A stretch of 45,070 nt of DNA from Acidimicrobiia bacterium (GTDB lineage Bacteria; Actinomycetota; Acidimicrobiia; Acidimicrobiales; Bin134). The notes beneath the pieces were generated by a model. It made no database searches and was not told where the DNA came from. It saw only the letters and a list, made by a program, of their open reading frames with translations. The stretch is taken from contig JAJDTA010000049.1 in assembly GCA_022827405.1 (NCBI GenBank), positions 1 through 45,070 of the forward strand, given 5' to 3'. Made by a program: the position numbers and the translations under genes. Every line of letters starts with the position of its first letter. Position 1 is the first letter of the stretch. Positions 35,385 to 36,145 of this stretch are shown here, one piece after another.

Positions 35385-35663
35385 ATGAACAAGTCAGAGT
35401 TGGTCAGCGCCATCAGCGAGCGCACCGGTGAGAGCAAAAGTGCTGTGGACGCGGTGCTCAGTAGCCTGGAGACTGTTGTCACCGAGCAAGTGATCCTGGG
35501 CGACAAGGTTGCGATCACCGGCTTCGTGTCCTTCGAGCAGACCTCTCGAGGCGCCCGCACCGGTCGCAACCCCCGCACTGGCGAGACCATCCAGATTGCC
35601 GCCGCCAAAGGCTGCAAGGTGAGCGCTGGCGCCCGGCTGAAGGCAGCCGTCAAGGGAACCTGA
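35385..35663 (+). CDS. HU-family DNA-binding protein
   Basis: Small basic nucleoid protein of 92 aa. It has NKSELVSAISERTG at the N-terminus, VAITGFVSFEQTSRGARTGRNPRTGE covering the beta-arm (with the GRNPRTGE tip) and AAKGCKVSAGARLKAAV at the end. It lacks the long Lys/Ala-rich C-terminal tail of mycobacterial HupB. The ATG has a very strong AGGAGG Shine-Dalgarno sequence, in contrast to neighbouring leaderless genes, and a perfect inverted repeat lies just upstream. IHF-type identity is less likely because of the HU-like arm. Confidence 0.9.
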   Translation: MNKSELVSAISERTGESKSAVDAVLSSLETVVTEQVILGDKVAITGFVSFEQTSRGARTGRNPRTGETIQIAAAKGCKVSAGARLKAAVKGT

Positions 35664-35680: not shown

Positions 35681-36145
35681 ATGGCTGATTGGCTGTTGTC
35701 TCCCGGCGATCAAACGCCGGCGTTCACGCTGGAGGACCAGAACGGCAACCAGGTGTCGCTGGGTGACTTTGCCGGACGGAAGCTGGCGATTTTCTTCTTT
35801 CCCAAGGCGCTCACCCCTGGTTGAACCAATCAGGCAATCGGCGTGCGTGACATCGCCGCAGAACGGGGTATCGCCGCAGTAGGAATCAGCGGAGACAAAC
35901 CCGACCGCCAGAAGCGGTTCGACGAGAAGTGCGACCTCGGCTATTCGCTGCTGTCCGACCCTCACCACGAGGTCGCGGAGGCCTTTGGGGTATGGCGGGA
36001 GAAGAAGATGTACGGCAAGACGTATTGGGGGGTGGTCCGCTCGGCGTTTTTGGTGGACGGAGACGGCCGAATCGAGCATGCCTGGTACAAGATCAGCCCC
36101 AAGAACACCGCGGCCAACCTGGCTTCGGCACTGCCTGAGGAATAG
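35681..36145 (+). CDS. bcp: Bcp-type peroxiredoxin with in-frame UGA (probable selenocysteine)
   Basis: Thiol (here selenol) peroxidase that reduces hydroperoxides. Read through a single TGA at 35822-35824, the frame gives 154 residues, the normal Bcp length. The N-terminal part (LLSPGDQTPAFTLEDQNG, then LAIFFFPKALTPG) and the C-terminal part (TNQAIGVRDIAAE, GISGDKP, LLSDPHHEVAEAFGVW, RSAFLVDGDGRI) both match the family. The UGA is codon 48, exactly the peroxidatic cysteine of the TPGCT motif. The Cys often found five residues later is Ile, but Cys84, 36 residues on, matches the resolving cysteine of Xanthomonas/Xylella Bcp. Nothing else in the frame is broken, which argues against a simple pseudogene. 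No sel genes are in the window. Alternative: a recent nonsense mutation or sequencing error. Confidence 0.8.
35839..35858 (+). promoter_or_regulatory. Candidate bacterial SECIS hairpin
   Basis: CGGCG (35839-35843) pairs with CGCCG (35854-35858) around the 10-nt loop TGCGTGACAT. The loop starts 19 nt after the UGA and includes GU at 35847-35848, within the range described for bacterial SECIS elements. A competing stem TGCG/CGCA is possible. Folding was done by eye only. Confidence 0.4.

Follow-up and report, generated by a model that had tools for sequence, protein, structure and literature searches.

An in-frame UGA at the peroxidatic position of a Bcp-type peroxiredoxin almost certainly encodes selenocysteine in one genus of the Acidimicrobiales

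Results

The locus and its product

The window, the whole stretch of 45,070 nucleotides that was analysed here, carries on its forward strand a gene that runs from ATG to TAG and is interrupted by a single in-frame TGA, in the context FFFPKALTPG-U-TNQAIGVRD. Its neighbors are a PALP-family gene, read by its position as trpB-like, a trpA gene, and a gene for an HU-like DNA-binding protein, whose TGA stop codon (35661–35663) is found 17 bases before the peroxiredoxin gene; a FabA-like gene follows downstream. The features to which we refer below are:

35681..36145, + strand: gene of a Bcp-type peroxiredoxin predicted to contain selenocysteine (Sec), 154 aa, ATG to TAG
35822..35824, + strand: UGA codon 48, read as selenocysteine, at the peroxidatic position (P41xxxT45xxU48)
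35837..35839, + strand: codon 53 (Ile), by codon alignment the site of the +5 cysteine in the Cys-containing relatives read
35839..35858, + strand: candidate SECIS hairpin, a stem with a bulged U and the loop CGUGA (35846–35850); core sequence invariant, fold not settled
35930..35932, + strand: codon of Cys84, the sole other cysteine of the window's protein, off the column of the Xanthomonas resolving cysteine and not conserved across the genus

With cysteine written in place of U, the 154-residue product scores 156.1 bits against the NCBIfam model NF006960 (Bcp/thiol peroxidase, COG1225; cut-off 140), and a match to PF00578 (AhpC/TSA) spans residues 8–133. The UGA falls within PKALTPG-U-T, corresponding to the peroxidatic motif PxxxTxxC/U, which in Bcp-type peroxiredoxins goes together with a later arginine. 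P41, T45, U48, and R120 are kept in all 20 orthologues of the genus in the codon alignment. The motif itself, without the arginine, is given in the available text of a 2026 review. An earlier note on this DNA had described one TGA at the peroxidatic site of an otherwise intact frame, and the read-through product of normal length, passing its family cut-off, agrees with that description. The same note had expected standard gene calling to report the C-terminal 100 residues, and the table-11 list of open reading frames of at least 100 aa indeed shows in this frame only the C-terminal ORF at 35843–36145.

The UGA is conserved within the genus and aligns with cysteine in the homologues read outside it

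Orthologues were sought in 60 genomes, among them 22 from the window's genus. An orthologue is present in 20 of the 22 (E at most 6.5e-60), always with a single TGA, and codon alignment places this TGA at codon 48 in all 20 copies, including one that is cut by a contig end (L037). The two other genomes, G008 (68% complete) and G016 (98% complete, 1.8 Mb), gave weak matches only (E 3.9e-4 and 8.8e-5, respectively). Outside the genus, every row among the matches listed down to E 1.2e-23 is free of stop codons, and all of the non-genus homologues read at the codon level (the first ten listed) have cysteine at the site of codon 48 and, in translation, a second cysteine at the +5 position. The central claim of the earlier note, that the UGA stands for selenocysteine, is supported by this pattern: close relatives, which it had proposed to inspect for U or C at codon 48, have U in all 20 genus copies and Cys in the ten homologues read outside the genus, and the scattered stops in relatives that it had named as evidence to the contrary did not occur. 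Among the 19 full-length genus copies (171 pairs), median dN/dS is 0.156 before the UGA (170 finite pairs) and 0.185 after it (160 finite pairs), which indicates purifying selection on both parts of the gene.

A broader set of 296 genomes from the class, the window's own included, yielded 157 that matched at E 1e-35 or better. Among the matches listed, three members of the genus have the TGA, a fourth member (G016) being unmatched, and one non-genus row, G117, contains a TGA. The latter was considered as an independent acquisition of selenocysteine and rejected, the TGA being the terminal stop of the G117 gene. A plasmid search matched 125 records, all at less than 60% identity, and among the ten of the 125 that were listed, those with an annotated feature are called bcp.

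Selenocysteine machinery

The window's assembly encodes SelA (405.8 and 405.1 bits, cut-off 267.9), SelB in genes adjoining selA (274.5 and 273.8 bits, cut-off 242.25), and SelD (352.3 bits, cut-off 125); selD is itself interrupted by an in-frame TGA, at GAG-U-AGK. The two selA–selB copies, on contigs G000:C226 and G000:C163 (L021 and L022), are 87% identical over 5.2 kb. This duplication points to another related species or strain in the bin, and one of the copies may stem from such an organism; given two copies and a bin contamination of 5.34%, the assignment of either to the window's organism is not settled.

A tRNA-Sec gene (selC) was not found in the draft assembly by an Rfam search that scored 150 of 803 candidates, and the DNA of a relative's tRNA-Sec retrieved from the window's genome, as its best match, a 29-base piece at 86%. 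A generic tRNA-Sec pattern had one match in the genome, which was judged by eye not to be a tRNA. The 29-base piece, near the end of one selA–selB contig (G000:C226:17590-17618), resembles the 3' part of tRNA-Sec (E 0.0068), and no tRNA is called there. In the eight relatives that have both genes on one contig, tRNA-Sec precedes selA and shares its strand. With G005, the alignment extends to the final base of contig C226 (81% over the last 1.8 kb), and the tRNA-Sec of G005 lies 51 bases beyond; alignment with G007, G010, and G012 ends about 140–150 bases before the end of C226, and their tRNA-Sec genes lie 26, 741, and 803 bases past the end of the alignment, respectively. Because of this synteny, a contig break at the end of C226 likely explains the missing gene. 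The earlier note had predicted a Sec system elsewhere in the genome, which holds for selA, selB, and selD, all over their cut-offs, with tRNA-Sec probably just past the end of C226; the absence of the sel genes altogether, by which it would have withdrawn the claim, did not occur.

Across the genus, selA scores over the cut-off in 21 of 22 genomes, selB in 14 of the 15 searched, and tRNA-Sec in 12 of the 15 searched (missing in G000, which is the window's genome, G002, and G008). ARAGORN calls tRNA-SeC(tca) at all 16 loci that passed the tRNA-Sec cut-off, 13 in the genus and three outside, and among eight non-genus genomes searched, tRNA-Sec occurs in exactly the three that have selA (G025, G027, and G028). 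One genus member counts against the association: G013 has the UGA gene and tRNA-Sec but neither selA nor selB, perhaps owing to a gap in its 93%-complete assembly. Of 38 genomes outside the genus, 23 pass the selA cut-off, and six of these (G031, G034, G035, G040, G046, and G050) encode Bcp with cysteine; a Sec system alone therefore does not bring about a Sec-containing Bcp.

A constrained element follows the UGA

Downstream of the UGA, all 20 genus copies share the string CGTGCGTGAC without change. It includes the loop CGUGA, a small apical loop with a G that begins 21 nt past the UGA and that, in the window's copy, is closed by UG/CA, with a U bulging below from the longer stem at 35839–35858. 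When 22 nt are folded alone, the CGUGA hairpin is the best structure in every copy (20/20, 11 distinct sequences), and in the two most divergent copies (L043 and L044), in which stem bases are changed, the stem still forms around the same loop. With longer flanks it is the best fold in 11 of 20 copies at 30 nt, eight at 45 nt, and six at 60 nt, and the window's copy and its closest relatives favor a shifted hairpin in another register. Folding the region after the UGA, as the earlier note had advised, thus returned the CGUGA hairpin at 22 nt, and a different register was often preferred once the flanks were extended.

Folding stability is ordinary, with z-scores from −0.72 to +0.74 in six stretches, one of which (L036) forms the CGUGA hairpin, and synonymous recodings of ten copies were at least as stable in 0.075–0.52 of cases. 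Given ordinary z-scores, recodings that fold about equally, and another fold in most longer flanks, we rejected folding as proof of a SECIS. RNAalifold, applied to 14 of the 20 copies (13 distinct), obtains the CGUGA hairpin with a covariation term near zero. Of the cells in hairpin pairs, 91.2% are paired, versus 86.7% in shuffled alignments (8/500), and four are changed on both sides, versus 1.6 (8/500). Of 500 shuffles, 67 reached the covariation score, 456 the count of pairs with changes on both sides, and 493 that of pair types, so that covariation in the candidate hairpin is modest.

Codon usage is more informative. Of 30 four-fold codons whose first and second bases are fixed, five (47, 55, 56, 101, and 147) also have a frozen third base; codons 55 (V55, GTG) and 56 (R56, CGT), both frozen in 20/20, lie inside the hairpin, and none of the others among the 30 does. 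Arg56 is CGT in every copy, and elsewhere in these genes CGT accounts for 9 of 127 arginine codons. These frozen codons and the invariant string are better evidence for a SECIS than folding, and they point to an element under constraint after the UGA, the exact SECIS fold of which is not settled.

Cysteines of the window's protein and its relatives

The resolving cysteine of Bcp proteins is located at the +5 position or, as in Xanthomonas, on the following helix, and some members of the family lack one. From a spacing of 36 residues, the earlier note had proposed that Sec48 pairs with Cys84. We aligned the protein, both as a single sequence and as a 13-row profile, with the solved chains 3gkk and 5iox, which we take to be Xanthomonas Bcp with Cys84 as the resolving residue. 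The Cys84 of those chains falls on Asp81 of the window's protein, whose own Cys84 aligns with glutamine, the window's protein being shorter than the solved chains between the peroxidatic and resolving sites. In the 20 genus copies, the position aligned with the Xanthomonas resolving cysteine is Asp in 19 and Ala in one. Cys84 itself is present in 14, the closest orthologues included; five copies (L038, L040, L042, L043, and L044) lack any other cysteine, and the only other one of L041 is its residue 71, corresponding to position 70 of the window's protein. At +5, where the ten relatives read have cysteine, all 20 copies carry Ile, Val, Asn, or Lys. The proposed pair is thus not supported by the alignments. 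Since the +5 cysteine is missing genus-wide and Cys84 is found in part of the genus only, these sequences suggest an external reductant for the whole genus rather than a fixed internal Sec–Cys bond, with Cys84 being at most accessory in some members.

With regard to mycothiol as a low-molecular-weight reductant, an MshC-like protein reaches 437.5 bits for MshC (cut-off 485.1), more than its 353.8 bits for cysS, which pass that family's cut-off of 340; none of 23 genomes passes the MshC cut-off, and no mycothiol ligase could be called. A frame of MshC/CysS type in G027 (G027:C1:2006015-2007121) contains one internal TGA.

Other frames with an internal TGA

An active-site TGA (TKG-U-T) is also present in a second peroxiredoxin of the window's genome (L139, G000:C14:21418-21828); downstream of this TGA, the sequence can fold into a hairpin with CCGUGA in its loop. 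Similar second matches with one TGA occur in 17 of the 22 genus genomes, the place of the TGA having been read in the window's genome only. Weaker rows of the 60-genome search include other peroxiredoxin types with a TGA, of which those of G055 and G046 were read: L146 (G055:C12) and L147 (G046:C290), from other families of the order, are distant-type peroxiredoxins with an active-site TGA (TPG-U-T), and L146 retains the +5 cysteine. A weakly similar family of single-TGA frames of 386–424 aa, a possible further selenoprotein, is present in six genus genomes (G003:C19:29989, G005:C213:2731, G007:C5:12335, G014:C1:719305, G017:C526:7801, and G018:C53:1303).

Discussion

Our analyses of this locus revealed a codon that looks like a stop but almost certainly stands for selenocysteine in a peroxide-removing enzyme, a conserved trait of one genus. 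Because the conserved UGA is paired with cysteine in relatives and the genes for selenocysteine incorporation are present, we assign a probability of about 0.95 to the product of 35681–36145 being a selenoprotein in which selenocysteine replaces the peroxidatic cysteine of a Bcp-type peroxiredoxin, an assignment made from sequence comparison and left unchanged by the folding results. We propose the following model for its synthesis and action. A SECIS just 3' of the UGA would recruit SelB with Sec-tRNA(Sec), such that UGA48 is read as selenocysteine rather than as a stop. The selenolate would, judging from the family, reduce hydroperoxides, and the oxidised selenium may then be re-reduced mostly by an external thiol, either thioredoxin or a low-molecular-weight thiol.

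Could the TGA instead be a mutated or misread cysteine codon in a dead or mis-assembled gene? The window derives from one draft assembly with 5.34% contamination, in which an error of this kind might arise, but an identical TGA in every one of the 20 genus copies, a frame free of any other stop, and low dN/dS downstream of the TGA make such an origin scarcely credible. A genome-wide reassignment of UGA to another residue, as to Trp or Gly in some lineages, would also fit a frame that is open when TGA is read as a sense codon. We give it next to no weight, considering that TGA ends 15 of the 31 large ORFs of the window (a mechanical pick, shadow ORFs included), that it stops the HU gene once the HU domain is complete, and that selA, selB, and selD are present.

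Two further alternatives concern what is made from the gene and how the enzyme works. Regulated readthrough could yield two products, a peptide truncated at 47 residues or a C-terminal protein of 100 aa with a start of its own, for which a GTG-started ORF at 35843–36145 exists. That ORF begins within the candidate hairpin and is devoid of the active site, and the N-terminal part of the gene is under similar purifying selection, which renders this scenario very improbable. A selenoprotein with Sec48 and Cys84 as its resolving pair is a less remote prospect, Cys84 being the sole other cysteine of the window's protein, shared with its closest orthologues, and only three residues off the place of the Xanthomonas resolving cysteine. 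We nevertheless consider it doubtful, with the Xanthomonas residue aligned to Asp81 and six of the 20 orthologues lacking Cys84, five of them any other cysteine. The reading that we favor remains a Sec-containing Bcp recycled by an external reductant.

How does this protein relate to known selenoproteins? The available text of the Sargasso Sea paper lists a Sec peroxiredoxin as COG1225 with the motif TXXU (43 sequences), that of a 2022 review as COG1225 (Bcp) with TxxU, and that of a 2026 review with TxxU; on these grounds, bacterial Sec-containing Bcp is already known as a selenoprotein family. The published proteins resemble the one described here in having selenocysteine at the peroxidatic position, in TxxU, and in bearing the same COG name. 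The likeness to the Sargasso Sea set is one of description, not sequence, and the available text makes no mention of the genus, of conservation within it, or of the missing +5 cysteine. Among titles and abstracts of open-licence papers, we found none describing a selenoprotein of the window's genus. PrxU of Eubacterium acidaminophilum likewise contains selenocysteine in a peroxiredoxin. Against NF040737, which from its name we take to be the PrxU family, the window's protein scores 21.2 bits (cut-off 270) and hence belongs to another peroxiredoxin subfamily. Cys-type Bcp proteins of known structure (3gkk, 5iox, and related entries) are homologous to it over nearly the whole length, but have a peroxidatic cysteine where it has selenocysteine and a resolving Cys84 where it has no cysteine. 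Unlike its Cys-containing relatives of the same class, it also lacks the +5 cysteine.

A gene search returned 18 loci, of which 14 are 75–94% identical; those whose coordinates were compared correspond to the genus genomes analysed above. Among the carriers are Candidatus Poriferisocius aerobius (L124, at the coordinates of G011), from a genus that NCBI places in the Acidimicrobiales, and bin134 (MPNQ), a sponge bin from the Sva0996 marine group (L123, at the coordinates of G013). Only bin134 is shown here to come from a sponge; for Poriferisocius, the name suggests it. In a 2017 study of sponge metagenomes (PMC5649159), SelA and SelB are stated to co-occur in most symbiont bins and to be absent from most close references, and its available text does not name a selenoprotein as their user. 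The bin134 genome, one of the bins of that study, carries the UGA gene, yet it is the one noted above to show no selA or selB.

The gene described here, of which a standard table-11 ORF list makes only the C-terminal 100 residues visible, gives the Sec system a concrete candidate user across the genus. It is probably not the sole reason for that system, since G016, a 1.8-Mb genome that is 98% complete, keeps selA without a clear Bcp orthologue. We speculate, at somewhat less than even odds and on comparative grounds, that exchange of cysteine for selenocysteine together with loss of the internal resolving cysteine may have converted a two-Cys Bcp to a glutathione-peroxidase-like enzyme with one Sec, recycled by an external, perhaps mycothiol-like, thiol, and that this enzyme may be one reason why the genus, sponge symbionts included, keeps a Sec system. 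The missing resolving cysteine makes the protein a testable case for the effect of a Cys-to-Sec change on the catalytic cycle of a peroxiredoxin.
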